Positions 1 to 4,821 of a DNA stretch of 64,000 nucleotides are shown here, piece by piece. The stretch's first letter is position 1; every line of letters starts with the position of its first letter. The stretch spans positions 1,769,812 through 1,833,811 of the forward strand of contig NZ_CM001022.1 of assembly GCF_000165795.1 (NCBI RefSeq), written 5' to 3'. The notes beneath the pieces were generated by a model, which was not told where the DNA came from, did no database searches, and saw only the letters and a list, made by a program, of their open reading frames with translations. The position numbers were made by a program, and so were the translations under genes. This DNA comes from Aminomonas paucivorans DSM 12260 (lineage in GTDB: Bacteria; Synergistota; Synergistia; Synergistales; Synergistaceae).

Positions 1-2181
1 TTCCTCAATGCCCGCCCCAGGGGAAGCCGGGCCGAGGCGGTACAGGTCCTCCTCCACCAGAAGCCACCCGAGGGACACCAGTTCGTCCCTTGTCCGCTGG
101 AACGCCTTCTTCTTCGCGTCCGAGCTGTCCTTCGTGCTGCCGGAGTAGAACGTCCTCCTCCAGTCCTCCAGGTGGACCCCGAGGAAAGCCCCGTCCCGGT
201 CCAGCCTGCCGTGGTCCTTCGCCGCCGCGTACCAGGAGTCCAGCGCCTGCCGCAGGACCGGACGAAGGGATTCCCTCCTGGGGGCTTGGATGCCTCCCTG
301 AGCCTCCACCAAGACGGCGCTGTGGACAGGCCGCCCCTCTTCATCCGCCAGGCCCGGGAGGACTACATCCTGGAGTTCCAGGGTCAGGGGATTTCCCAGT
401 TCCGCGTCCTTCGATTTCGTGGCGGTGACCGTCACCAGGTGGTTGCTTTTGGTGACGCACAGCTCTGTGTCCATCGCAGCCTTCAGGGCCGAGGAGCCCC
501 GCGCCCGGTTCCGGTCCCCGTGCCCGGAGTGGTGAACCGCCAGGATCAGCGCCCCGGGGTTCTCCAGCCGCAACCGATCCATGGCCCCGATGAAGCGCCC
601 CACGTCCTGGGAGCTATTCTCGTCCGCCCCCGCAAGGCACCGGGCCACGGTATCCAGGACGATCAGGGCCAAGGGTTCTCCCGCCTCTTCCCGGATGACA
701 GCCAGGGCCGCCGAGGCTTCCTCGATGCCCTCCAGGGTCGCCAGGTCAGCAGCGCAGTTCGACAGGGCCAGACGATCCACCAGAACCCCGTGGTGCTCTT
801 CCCATCCGGCGATACGTCGGGCCAGGCCCCTTGCCCCTTCCCCGGCGACGTAGGCCACAACCCCCTGCCGGACCTTCCGCCCGCAGAAGTACCGCCCCGT
901 GGCTACGGAACAGGCCAGGCCCACGGACGCGAAGCTCTTCCCGCTGCCGGGCTCCCCGAAGATCAGGCCGAGGGTGTCCCGCTCGAAGAGCCTTTCCACC
1001 AGCCAGTCCGGGGGGAGAACCTCCAGGTCCCGCCTCCATGCGAAGCGAAGACGCCCCGCCTTCCTGGTAGCCGGTCCCGCCTCCGGGAACGCCTCACAGG
1101 TCGTTGCTACAGCAGCCGGGGGGAAGTCGTCGTCCTCCGGGTCGTCCGAGAGGGGCAGGAGGGGGATGGGGGGCCCTACTTCGAGGTCGCCCCAGTCATC
1201 GCCCTGATCCACGGCGGAATCCTCCGCCACCTGTTGGAGCCGCAGGATTTCCGCCGCCATGGTTTCACCACGCCCTTTCGCTGTTTGGAGTTCTTCCCGT
1301 GCCGCTTCGAGCCCCAGGGACGTCGCCAAGTCGTTCCAGTCCGACCCCGGGGTCCCTTCCGGGGTGAGGGGAACCGCCCCGGATTCCTTCGCCGCCGCTT
1401 CCGCAGCCCGCCGCCCGGCTTCGTCGTTGTCCGTCGCCGCGTAGAGGACCACATGGGGACGGCACCGCCGCACCAGGGAGCAGACGGCCGGGACGTTCGA
1501 CGTGCTGAAGGCCGCTAGGACCACGCCAGCGTCACCCACTAGCTGCTGAAGGCTGTAGGCCGTCGCGTAGCCTTCTGCCACGTAGATGGCCTTGTGCTTG
1601 GGGTTCCGCCAGTCAGGGGCCATCGAATGAAAGGAGCCCGTCAGGACGGAGCCCCTGATGAGCCGCTTGGAGCCGTCCGCGCCGATCCGCTGGACCCCCG
1701 CCAGGCCGCCGATGGAGTCGTACAGGGGAACCAGCAGGCCCCCGGTGCCGTCCACCTTCAGGCCCGGGAGAACAGGGAGCCCCTTACGGACCTGGTACAC
1801 ATGGGGGGAATCCAGGACCTTCCCTTCATCCCAGGCCTTGCGCATTGCCACCGCCGCCCGGGCCGCTTCAAGGGCTGCCTTCTGGCGCTCCGCTTCGGCC
1901 TTCGCCAGGGCTTCCGGGTCGGCCTGTCCGCCCTCTCCGGGAGGGTCCACCCCCAGCAGCCGGGCCAGCTCCAGGACACCGCCGTGCTGCCCCGTGGTGC
2001 GATCCAGGAACCCCGCCCGCTCCGGGTCGCAGCAGACGCCGAAGCTCGGGTTCTTCTCAGGCCGCAGGGGAGACAAGCACCTGCCGGACCAACCGCCCGG
2101 GCCGCCCCACTGGACGGGGGAAGGAATCACTCTGCAAAACCACCGCCGCAGCTCGTCCGGGGAGGCGTTGTAGCGACTCAT
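1..2181 (-). CDS. Phage/plasmid-type primase-helicase (TOPRIM plus RepA/DnaB-like ATPase), partial
   Basis: The minus-strand frame is open from an ATG at 2181 to the window edge: 727 codons with no stop, and the C-terminus is missing. Residues 35-70 hold a cysteine-containing stretch like a primase CHC2 zinc motif (PEKNPSFGV, then a TGQHGGVLELARLLG segment). About 195-275 is a TOPRIM domain (VAEGYATA, later ATDND). A Walker A GEPGSGKS is near 406, a Walker B-like LALIVLDT near 503, and a downstream RGSSAL segment is typical of RepA-type replicative helicases. The expected role is priming and unwinding DNA for replication of the element. The start overlaps the stop of the preceding HTH gene by one base (TGATG), so translation is probably coupled. 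Family assignment is by motif only. Confidence 0.8.
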   Translation of the reverse strand, partial: MSRYNASPDELRRWFCRVIPSPVQWGGPGGWSGRCLSPLRPEKNPSFGVCCDPERAGFLDRTTGQHGGVLELARLLGVDPPGEGGQADPEALAKAEAERQKAALEAARAAVAMRKAWDEGKVLDSPHVYQVRKGLPVLPGLKVDGTGGLLVPLYDSIGGLAGVQRIGADGSKRLIRGSVLTGSFHSMAPDWRNPKHKAIYVAEGYATAYSLQQLVGDAGVVLAAFSTSNVPAVCSLVRRCRPHVVLYAATDNDEAGRRAAEAAAKESGAVPLTPEGTPGSDWNDLATSLGLEAAREELQTAKGRGETMAAEILRLQQVAEDSAVDQGDDWGDLEVGPPIPLLPLSDDPEDDDFPPAAVATTCEAFPEAGPATRKAGRLRFAWRRDLEVLPPDWLVERLFERDTLGLIFGEPGSGKSFASVGLACSVATGRYFCGRKVRQGVVAYVAGEGARGLARRIAGWEEHHGVLVDRLALSNCAADLATLEGIEEASAALAVIREEAGEPLALIVLDTVARCLAGADENSSQDVGRFIGAMDRLRLENPGALILAVHHSGHGDRNRARGSSALKAAMDTELCVTKSNHLVTVTATKSKDAELGNPLTLELQDVVLPGLADEEGRPVHSAVLVEAQGGIQAPRRESLRPVLRQALDSWYAAAKDHGRLDRDGAFLGVHLEDWRRTFYSGSTKDSSDAKKKAFQRTRDELVSLGWLLVEEDLYRLGPASPGAGIEE

Positions 2182-2492
2182 CAGCACCCACCCCCAAGAT
2201 CAAGGCTGCCTTGCCGCCCCTGGAGAGGCTGGTTCTCCTCATCCGGGGTCTGCGTCCAGGAAGCGTCCAGGTCCAGCGAGTACTCCGCTACCCGCCGACC
2301 GTCGCCGACATCGACCAGCCGGGACCGGATCGGCCAGCCACGGCGCTTCAAGTCGTAGATTCGAGCGCTCAGGCGGAAGGACCCCACTCCGTCCAGAGCC
2401 TCAAGCGGGGTGATGTGTTCCCCGGTCAGGAGCCGCCTCAAGATGGCCTCCGCTTGGGTCTGCGCCTGGGATGCGTTCGGGTTCAGGTTCAT
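2181..2492 (-). CDS. Small helix-turn-helix protein of the integrated element
   Basis: This 103-residue protein has one recognisable segment, roughly residues 12-60, with ITPLEALDGVGSFRLSARI followed by YDLKRRGWPI. That pattern (an LTPLEAL helix, then a recognition helix ending in IYDLRRxGxxI) is the phage-associated helix-turn-helix family usually found next to phage replication genes. The tail ends in a glycine-rich GGGC. Its ATG overlaps the stop of the 261-aa gene as ATGA, and its own stop overlaps the primase start, so it sits in a coupled replication cassette. It may be an origin-binding or regulatory protein; this is inferred from fold and position only. Confidence 0.65.
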   Translation of the reverse strand: MNLNPNASQAQTQAEAILRRLLTGEHITPLEALDGVGSFRLSARIYDLKRRGWPIRSRLVDVGDGRRVAEYSLDLDASWTQTPDEENQPLQGRQGSLDLGGGC

Positions 2493-3274
2493 CGGCAGTC
2501 ACCCCCGGAGACCATGCAGTAGCGACCCTCGGGCTCAGGGCCGGAGGGGATCAGGTCGGATGAGGAGGATCTAGGGGATGGCGGTACTAGACCCTGACCG
2601 TGCAGCCAGGGTGATGCAGGTGGGTCTCCTTGTTGTTGGTCGGGGTCTCCGTCGCCGGGACCACCACCTCCACCTGGGGAGGCTGCCACCGTCGCCACCC
2701 GGGCCACGTGGGAACGCCGAGGAGCACGGGACCGAGACTGCACAGCTCGACGGGGAGCAGGGCGGGAAACAGGACGGCGGGGGATGACCACCTTGCGAGG
2801 TTCCGGTTTCTCTGCTGTTCCGATTTTCGAGATGCGCCGGCGCGGAGACATCCCAGGAGGAAGACCCTGGGCCCTCAGGAGCCGACTGCAAGCTTCGTCG
2901 TACTCCCGCTCAAGTTCCTGGGAAAATAGAAAACGTGCTACAGCTTCCTCCGCATCTCGAAGAGAGGGATCTTGTGAGTCCAATAAACGACGTGCCGCGT
3001 CCCAGACTGTCTCCCTGCCCAATTTAAGCCGTTTCCTTGTCCTTCTAGCGATTTGCAGGTATCTCGTTTTGATTTTACTAGAAAGCCTCTCCATGTAATC
3101 CAAAGACTTGCTCTTGGTGTAATTTAGGTGCTTAATTGGCAAACAAAGAGTGAATGGCCCTTCTTCTCCGGGAAAATAAACTTCATCACAGATACAGCGT
3201 GCCTTATGGTCTATATGACCACATACTTGTATCGCTCTCGGGTCCTTCGTGGTAAGATTGGACTTACCAGGCAT
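2489..3274 (-). CDS. Unknown 261-aa protein of the integrated element
   Basis: Not recognised. The ATG at 3274 is preferred over longer readings because AAAGGTGG lies just upstream and because upstream codons run into the XRE gene. The N-terminal part has closely spaced cysteines and histidines (VCGHIDHKARCICDE, residues 16-30, then another Cys near 46), suggesting a metal site. Residues 60-150 are charged and helical, with many Arg/Lys. The last ~90 residues are low-complexity Pro/Gly/Ser/Arg and look disordered. Base composition shifts within the gene: the 5' half is comparatively A+T rich, the 3' half very GC-rich. It is coupled to the following HTH gene through an ATGA overlap. Replication-associated or regulatory roles are possible, but there is no evidence for either. 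Confidence 0.6.
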   Translation of the reverse strand: MPGKSNLTTKDPRAIQVCGHIDHKARCICDEVYFPGEEGPFTLCLPIKHLNYTKSKSLDYMERLSSKIKTRYLQIARRTRKRLKLGRETVWDAARRLLDSQDPSLRDAEEAVARFLFSQELEREYDEACSRLLRAQGLPPGMSPRRRISKIGTAEKPEPRKVVIPRRPVSRPAPRRAVQSRSRAPRRSHVARVATVAASPGGGGGPGDGDPDQQQGDPPASPWLHGQGLVPPSPRSSSSDLIPSGPEPEGRYCMVSGGDCR

Positions 3275-3333
3275 GCGTGCACCACCTTTCTCTTTGGGCC
3301 TCGGGGAGACGCTCCCCGGGGCTCTTTCTTTTC

Positions 3334-3534
3334 TCACGCCGACTTCGGCCACTCTCGCCCGCAAAGTTCGTCCAGGCTCACACCTAGGACGTCCGCCAGC
3401 TTGACGACAGAATCGAGACGCAACCCCGCCTTCCCCTCTTCGGCGTCCCGTAGCCGCCCCCAATCCAACCCGCTGTCTCGCGCCACTCGGTATCGGGTTA
3501 ACCCCCGGGCTTCTCGAAGCTCCTTAATTCGCAT
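3334..3534 (-). CDS. XRE-family HTH repressor-like protein
   Basis: This is a 66-residue single-domain Cro/CI-type DNA-binding protein. The whole chain is the HTH fold: MRIKELREARGLTRYRVARD, a turn, then recognition-helix residues around WGRLRDAEEG, and the closing helices DSVVKLADVLGVSLDELC that are typical of XRE proteins. The start at 3534 is chosen because GGGGAGGTG sits 6-7 bases upstream; longer readings lack a ribosome site. It is the first gene of the element's minus-strand cassette and has its own promoter just upstream. The likely role is control of the element's replication genes, as usual for such proteins at the head of phage operons. Confidence 0.85.
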   Translation of the reverse strand: MRIKELREARGLTRYRVARDSGLDWGRLRDAEEGKAGLRLDSVVKLADVLGVSLDELCGREWPKSA

Positions 3535-3562
3535 GTTTTCACCTCCCCTAACGAGATACCCC

Positions 3563-3591
3563 ATTGTATATCTATCGGCAAAAGAGGGCAA
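3563..3591 (-). promoter_or_regulatory. Putative sigma-A promoter for the element's XRE cassette
   Basis: Read on the minus strand, TTGCCC and TACAAT are separated by 17 bases, with the -10 box about 28 bases ahead of the XRE start codon. Four of six and five of six positions match the consensus. The surrounding DNA is A+T rich. Confidence 0.55.
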
Positions 3592-3881
3592 CCGCCATGT
3601 CGACACGATGGACAGCGCCACTACAGGTAGAGGGGAACCCGCCCGGGGCTAGTGCATGTGCCCATGTGCTATTTGCCTTTTTGGGTCAGCAGGAAGGGGG
3701 CACCTGGGTCTTGGCATATGTGACAGACAACATATACTAGAGTGACATACTCCGCAGGGAAACCGGACCACGGGGAAGGATTACGGAAGTTGAAATGTGC
3801 GGATGCAGATTAGCGGAACATTGACCGAACGGGGGCGAATACAAGGGAAACCGGAGAAAAACCCGGTGATACCAACGGTTT
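3592..3881. other. Gene-less end of the element, with short repeats
   Basis: No credible reading frame occurs between the XRE promoter and the metG fragment. The stretch contains two GTGACA copies (3720-3725 and 3742-3747) spaced 22 bases apart, about two helical turns. It also holds a near-inverted pair CATATGT/ACATATA (3715-3721 and 3730-3736) and several ATGTGC-like words around 3652-3668. Such short direct repeats near an element end can be integrase or excision-factor arm sites, but nothing here proves that. No terminator with a clear U-run was found. Confidence 0.4.
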
Positions 3882-3956
3882 TTAGCCGATGTGGGGGACG
3901 TCGTTGACGTAATAGATCGGGGTGGTGATGTAGAAGGGGGTTCGCTGTTCACTCAT
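3882..3956 (-). pseudogene. metG: metG 5' fragment: methionyl-tRNA synthetase cut after codon 24
   Basis: The reading frame begins at 3956 with MSEQRTPFYITTPIYYVN and continues DVPHIG, then meets TAA. This is the canonical start of class I methionyl-tRNA synthetase, whose catalytic HIGH motif follows exactly here; the frame stops at HIG. GAGGAGG lies upstream, overlapping the rsmI stop. rsmI followed by metG is a common arrangement. The rest of metG is not in the window and is presumably beyond the left end of the inserted element. Whether a working metG is restored at the other junction, or exists elsewhere, cannot be seen from here. Confidence 0.85.
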
Positions 3957-3969
3957 GGGGGGTTCCTCC

Positions 3970-4821
3970 TCACGCAGGTCCGTTTCGGGATTCTTCGCCG
4001 CGGCGCTGCCACAAAAAGGCCTTGGCGCGGTTCTTCGGGATACCATAGCGCTCCCCCAGGGACTTGACAACCGCGCGCCAGTCCCCGCCCTCCTCCAGCT
4101 CCCGGAGGGCCTCCTCCTGCCAGAGAGAGTCGGGGACGTCCGAGTTCTCAGGGGGTTCCGCTCCCGCCACCACCCCCACCAGCTCCCCACGAAGCCGTCC
4201 TCCCCGGGCAGCCTCCAGAAGCTCCCCCAGAGTGCCCCGAAGGGCCTCCTGGTGTACCTTACTGATCTCCCGGACCACCGCCGCGGGCCGGTCCCCCAGC
4301 TCCTCCCTCCACAGGGCGAGGTCCTCCTCGGGATGGTGAGGGGAGAGGTAGAAGATCAGGGTCTCCGGGCGATCCGCCAGGGAGCGGACTCGTCGGCGGC
4401 GGGCGGCGGGGCGTCCCTCCAGGAAGCCCACGAAGAGGAAAGACCGCGGATCCAGCCCCGAGAGGAGCAACGCCGGGATCAGGGCGTTGGGACCCGGGAG
4501 GACATCCACCTCGTACCCCGCCGCCAGGGCCGCCGCCAGCACCTGCCCCCCCGGGTCAGAGATCCCGGGGGTCCCCGCGTCGGACACCAGGACCACCGTC
4601 TTCCCTTCCCCCAGGACCCGGAGGATCTCCGGGATCCGTCGGACCTCGTTGTGTTCGTGGGTGGAGAGCAGGGGCTTGCGCAGGCCCAAATGGTTCAGCA
4701 ACCCCAGGGTGCGCCGGGTATCCTCGCAGGCCACCAGATCCGCCGCCTCCAGGACCTCCAGGGCCCGGAGGGTGATGTCCTTGAGGTTGCCGATGGGTGT
4801 GGGGACCAGGATCAGGGGCAT
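3970..4821 (-). CDS. rsmI: 16S rRNA (cytidine(1402)-2'-O)-methyltransferase RsmI
   Basis: This 283-residue protein is a SAM-dependent methyltransferase that modifies C1402 of 16S rRNA at the ribosomal P site. It opens with MPLILVPTPIGNLKDITLRA, has ACEDTRRT near residue 35 and LVSDAGTPGISDPG around 80-93, then GPNALIPALLLSGL; all are hallmarks of the tetrapyrrole-methylase-type RsmI family. The C-terminal part (EEGGDWRAVVKSLGERYGIPKNRAK) is the usual helical domain. Length matches the family. Its start overlaps the preceding methyltransferase by 10 bases, and metG follows within 13 bases, so all three were one transcript before the element arrived. Confidence 0.95.
   Translation of the reverse strand: MPLILVPTPIGNLKDITLRALEVLEAADLVACEDTRRTLGLLNHLGLRKPLLSTHEHNEVRRIPEILRVLGEGKTVVLVSDAGTPGISDPGGQVLAAALAAGYEVDVLPGPNALIPALLLSGLDPRSFLFVGFLEGRPAARRRRVRSLADRPETLIFYLSPHHPEEDLALWREELGDRPAAVVREISKVHQEALRGTLGELLEAARGGRLRGELVGVVAGAEPPENSDVPDSLWQEEALRELEEGGDWRAVVKSLGERYGIPKNRAKAFLWQRRGEESRNGPA

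Follow-up and report, generated by a model that had tools for sequence, protein, structure and literature searches.

dusA-associated islands integrate at the 5' end of dusA and replace that end of the gene (PMC4482086). SpyCI islands are located at the 5' end of mutL in Streptococcus pyogenes and switch this gene (PMC3430984, PMC4689407). The archaeal integrases of the pTN3 type target the 5' half of tRNA genes, which a review describes as seldom met in bacteria (PMC8371274). The rsmI-metG operon of Aminomonas paucivorans very probably contains a small phage-satellite-like element that was integrated site-specifically by its own tyrosine integrase. Like the dusA islands, it is an integrase element positioned in a conserved stretch at the 5' end of a protein-coding gene, it leaves the gene readable, and it includes a promoter-like sequence. 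However, the target is metG together with rsmI, and the repeat is exact and 191 bp long, whereas the dusA islands have a 21-bp consensus and imperfect repeats. In addition, the metG protein is unchanged, whereas dusA islands supply a new N-terminus.

Like SpyCI, the element is a small, phage-like island that has entered the 5' end of an operon's second gene, which it severs from the operon promoter, judging from gene order and the presumed position of that promoter. It differs from SpyCI in that the target is a single-copy, presumably essential synthetase gene and the host is unrelated. As in the pTN3 type, and as in the related elements of G030, G031, G017, and G025, the attachment site probably lies in the 5' half of a gene, so that the restored gene would be read from the side of the element, but the integrase is whole, whereas pTN3-type integrases are split on integration, and the target encodes a protein and not a tRNA. 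The size, the integrase located at one end, the Xre regulator, the primase-helicase, and the lack of recognised capsid genes resemble phage satellites such as PICIs. Unlike for PICIs, no helper phage is known, and the match to a terminase small subunit is weak. No report of metG as an attachment site was found in the literature searched, which took in few subscription journals. The locus represents a known kind of mobile-DNA insertion into genes, here with a new target and a layout that is somewhat unusual. It shows that mobile DNA can occupy the 5' end of a synthetase gene that is presumably essential without harm to its coding sequence, since the start codon, the ribosome-binding site, and perhaps a promoter are part of the duplicated block.

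Junctions of the element with the rsmI-metG operon

The genome of the host is a single contig of 2,630,170 bp (G000:C1), and the window, which is the whole 64,000-nt stretch of DNA that was analysed, corresponds to its positions 1769812–1833811. Inside the window, a metG frame starts behind rsmI and encodes MSEQRTPFYITTPIYYVNDVPHIG, 24 codons that end in PHIG, before it reaches a TAA at window positions 3884–3882, which is located in the DNA of the element (Table 1). The other junction was found by reading the contig leftward from the window. The two junctions share a perfect direct repeat of 191 bp, composed of the last 107 bp of rsmI, a gap of 13 bp, and the first 71 bp of metG. Both ends of the repeat are sharp, the identity of the junctions falls to background beyond them, and the genome contains only the two copies. 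The DNA between the copies has a length of 12,444 bp, and the element is quoted as 12.4 or 12.6 kb. A complete metG gene encoding 648 residues is present at the left junction, outside the window, rsmI is complete at the right junction, and 12.6 kb now lie between metG and the other genes of its operon.

When the host flanks are joined through one copy of the repeat, they form rsmI, 13 bp, and metG, and the two genes are contiguous in 14 of 14 relatives checked at the family level. The locus contains three of the features by which tyrosine-integrase elements are recognised: direct repeats at both ends that overlap a host gene, an intact tyrosine recombinase at one end, and an uninterrupted site in relatives. 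The first-pass annotation had described the normal start at 3956, the 24 residues, and the TAA as they stand in the sequence, and it had noted phage-like replication DNA to the left of the stub, which we identified as a primase-helicase and an Xre regulator. Its proposal that a mobile element was inserted at the 5' end of metG is borne out by the 191-bp repeat, which includes the CCCCACATCGG region that was to be sought at the far junction, and by the tyrosine integrase that adjoins that junction, as had been anticipated. The insertion model was to be given up if neither end of the element held a remainder of metG; the left junction holds the complete gene. The annotation had also taken metG to be split, which is not the case, because the 191-bp duplication leaves both rsmI and metG complete. 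The in-frame start that it had named as one possibility at the far end of the element is there, but the new N-terminus is not, as the start of the protein is unchanged; a new N-terminus or fusion for metG was therefore rejected. A second metG was rejected as well: a synthetase profile search of the genome gave one full-length match, and the other matches were partial and in other frames.

Table 1. Positions of features at the two junctions and in the element (window coordinates unless G000:C1 is given)
Feature	Position	Strand	Remarks
Right copy of the 191-bp direct repeat (att block)	3886..4076		G000:C1 1773697-1773887; left copy at G000:C1 1761062-1761252
metG stub	3882..3956	minus	24 codons, then TAA
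Complete metG, 648 aa	G000:C1 1761132 to about 1759186	minus	outside the window
rsmI, complete, 283 aa	3970..4821	minus	last 107 bp within the repeat
Promoter-like TTGTCA-17-TATGGT	4042..4070	minus	about 85-114 bp upstream of the metG ATG; in both repeat copies; consensus match only
Right part of the 12.4-kb element	1..3885		remainder left of the window, to G000:C1 1761253
Tyrosine integrase, 309 aa	G000:C1 1761323-1762252	plus	Phage_integrase 1.5e-26; arginine, LRH, GH, and RY motifs present
Primase-helicase, 5' part (901 aa in all)	1..2187	minus	Toprim_3, AAA_25, primase PHROGs
Winged-helix protein of the element	2181..2492	minus	HTH_39 5e-10, phrog_4973 7e-19
Element protein without family match	2489..3274	minus	start uncertain
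Xre/Cro-type regulator	3334..3534	minus	Pfam HTH_3 2.4e-10, PHROG regulators; ATG start taken at 3534
Candidate integrase arm site AAAACCCGGT	3858..3867		also 13 bp beyond the left repeat copy

Genes of the element and its relatives

The intact integrase is located at one end of the element, 70 bp from the left copy of the repeat. It is followed by an HTH_17 protein, a serine recombinase, a RelE-type toxin, an Xre antitoxin, a possible terminase small subunit, an SF2 helicase, a RuvC-like nuclease, a 237-aa protein, the 901-aa primase-helicase, two smaller proteins, and the Xre regulator near the right end. The HTH_17 protein may be an excisionase. One protein matches terminase small subunit families weakly (about 1e-3), and no virion or capsid genes were recognised among the proteins of the element by Pfam and PHROG. 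The presence of replication and regulator genes without virion genes makes the gene content PICI-like. The G+C content of the element is 65.5%, compared to 66.5% for the locus, and an Rfam search over the locus gave no match. The arm-type repeat signal is weak, with a shared 10-mer found in 10 of 300 shuffles. The toxin-antitoxin pair formed by the RelE-type and Xre proteins (L009 7808-8478, G000:C1 1765307-1765977) could stabilise the element. The serine recombinase and the neighbouring HTH_17 protein (L009 6746-7788) share the element with the tyrosine integrase.

Matches to the integrase (E up to 1e-30) were found in 21 of the 188 genomes of the phylum, with the focal genome counted. Ten related loci, counted among those with enough sequence (other loci were too short or had no clear repeat), contain a direct repeat with one copy immediately upstream of the integrase and the other 5.6–16 kb away. 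These repeats are 59–139 bp long, compared to 191 bp at metG, and at nine of the ten loci they overlap tRNA genes. In four Synergistota genomes (G030, G031, G017, and G025; loci L075-L088), the repeat is formed by the first 46–64 nt of a tRNA gene and 28–85 bp of upstream DNA, and the complete tRNA gene lies beside the integrase and points away from it, just as metG does in the focal element. Related integrases of the same phylum thus duplicate tRNA 5' halves with upstream DNA, in the arrangement seldom met in bacteria (PMC8371274). The duplication of 5' halves in these four genomes mirrors the more usual duplication of 3' parts. In two others, the repeat occupies the position of rsmI, and is the 3' part of tRNA-Trp in G011 and the 3' end of an iron-sulphur oxidoreductase gene in G009. 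Most or all of the tRNA is duplicated in G109, G119, G176, and G006c, where the elements leave two copies of the tRNA gene, one at each end.

Three proteins of the focal element are related to those of a similar-sized element at tRNA-Gln of G109, another member of the order, with identities of 45% for the helicase, 57% for the RuvC-like protein, and 28% for the primase. No close relatives of the integrase or primase were found in viral contigs, and the same search in genome contigs gave a single remote match. The metG end of the 191-bp block was not found in viral contigs.

Strand exchange and expression of metG

The point of exchange is not readable from the repeat because its two copies are identical. 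Sequence conservation and the extent of the block lean towards the element having supplied the 5' part of metG, and strand exchange probably takes place in the conserved codons of the HIGH motif, as opposed to the 3' end of rsmI. In 13 relatives, the terminal 40 bp of the block on the metG side have a mean identity of 85%, compared to 48% for the rsmI end and 38% for the middle. Integrases tend to use stable sequence, which favours the metG end. Read from the metG side, the block takes in the start codon together with its ribosome-binding site and 120 bp of upstream DNA. The corresponding tRNA blocks contain promoters upstream of the tRNA in G017 (TTGACA-17-TATACT) and G025 (TTGACG-17-TATCAT), and no clear promoter was seen inside the repeat block of G030 or G031.

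Exchange may instead have occurred in the 3' end of rsmI, in which case the element gave rsmI a new C-terminus, the 71 bp of metG are an extra capture, and metG keeps its native 5' end. The geometry also fits such an event, as rsmI is located at the integrase-distal end and reads into the element, like the oxidoreductase gene in G009 and the tRNA-Trp gene in G011. However, the block extends 84 bp beyond the rsmI stop, which is more than rsmI needs, compared to 18 bp in G009 and 0 bp in G011, and its rsmI end is poorly conserved. We regard exchange in rsmI as possible but less likely than exchange in metG. A tree of the integrases gave no grouping by the side of the crossover, and the focal branch is long.

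The integrase probably recombines attP of the circular element with the chromosomal site. With exchange on the metG side, the strands would be exchanged in the conserved codons around the HIGH motif. The attachment site of the element would carry a copy of the metG start, the ribosome-binding site, and about 120 bp of upstream DNA, and integration would restore the 5' end of metG from this copy. Transcription of metG would start from a promoter in the copied block or in the 70 bp of the element next to it, and excision would rebuild the ancestral operon. An exchange anywhere within the 191 bp leaves both genes intact, which makes such an operon usable as a target. If the metG side is the true one, the integrase group would provide ready cases of element-borne promoter copies that drive host translation genes.

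metG is expected to be essential. Since it is also present in a single copy, the integrated state must express it, and the gene would be transcribed from within the block, from the end of the element, or from deeper inside it. The block ends 6 bp beyond the promoter-like sequence, which is a modest match located within rsmI codons, and the -35 of which is not common to relatives. On the other side of the element, the rsmI operon continues across the metG stub in the direction of the Xre and replication genes, which are on the same strand (window 3145-3885). No terminator-like site was found on the operon strand between the stub and the right-end genes of the element. Because the operon and these genes have the same orientation, host transcription may reach the Xre and replication genes.

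As long as the element is integrated, metG lies apart from the operon promoter, and the element might therefore act as a SpyCI-like switch, an option also raised by the first-pass annotation, with excision and re-integration turning metG expression up or down. We consider this unlikely, since a single-copy gene that is expected to be essential must be expressed in the integrated state, and the assembly contains the integrated form only. In its favour, metG is cut off from rsmI and the upstream genes, and SpyCIM1 acts in this way at mutL (PMC4689407). It is similarly improbable that the element is an excision-controlled regulator, in which metG output would differ between the integrated and excised states so that the satellite sets translation capacity, and whose integrase group would rebuild tRNA genes and metG from the 5' side together with their promoters. 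Homologous recombination of a circle that carried 191 bp of host DNA, with the integrase uninvolved, would account for a repeat that is long, exact, and exceeds those of the relatives. Nevertheless, the integrase adjoins the repeat, and ten relatives have the same layout at other sites, which makes such an origin very unlikely. A misassembly, which the first-pass annotation had considered at position 3885, is the least credible explanation, and we give it almost no weight. The genome was assembled from 454 and Illumina data, but with about 274-fold coverage and a 12-kb paired-end library; the published type-strain genome of 2,630,120 bp has a single gap, in the rDNA region (PMC3035310). Furthermore, both junctions are biologically sensible, the integrase is at the expected end, and the relatives share the design at other sites.

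Additional features of related elements

The tRNA-Sec attachment block of the element in G025 (L087) has copies at G025:C8 79400-79538 and 87894-88032, and a third, partial copy of 96 bp is located just past the far one, at 88132-88227, as if it were the remnant of an earlier integration. The element in G009 (L079/L080, G009:C2 about 263000-267000) encodes two radical-SAM-like proteins together with a short peptide that contains His-Gly-Ser repeats. Read from the translations, this cargo looks like a His-Xaa-Ser peptide-modification cassette.
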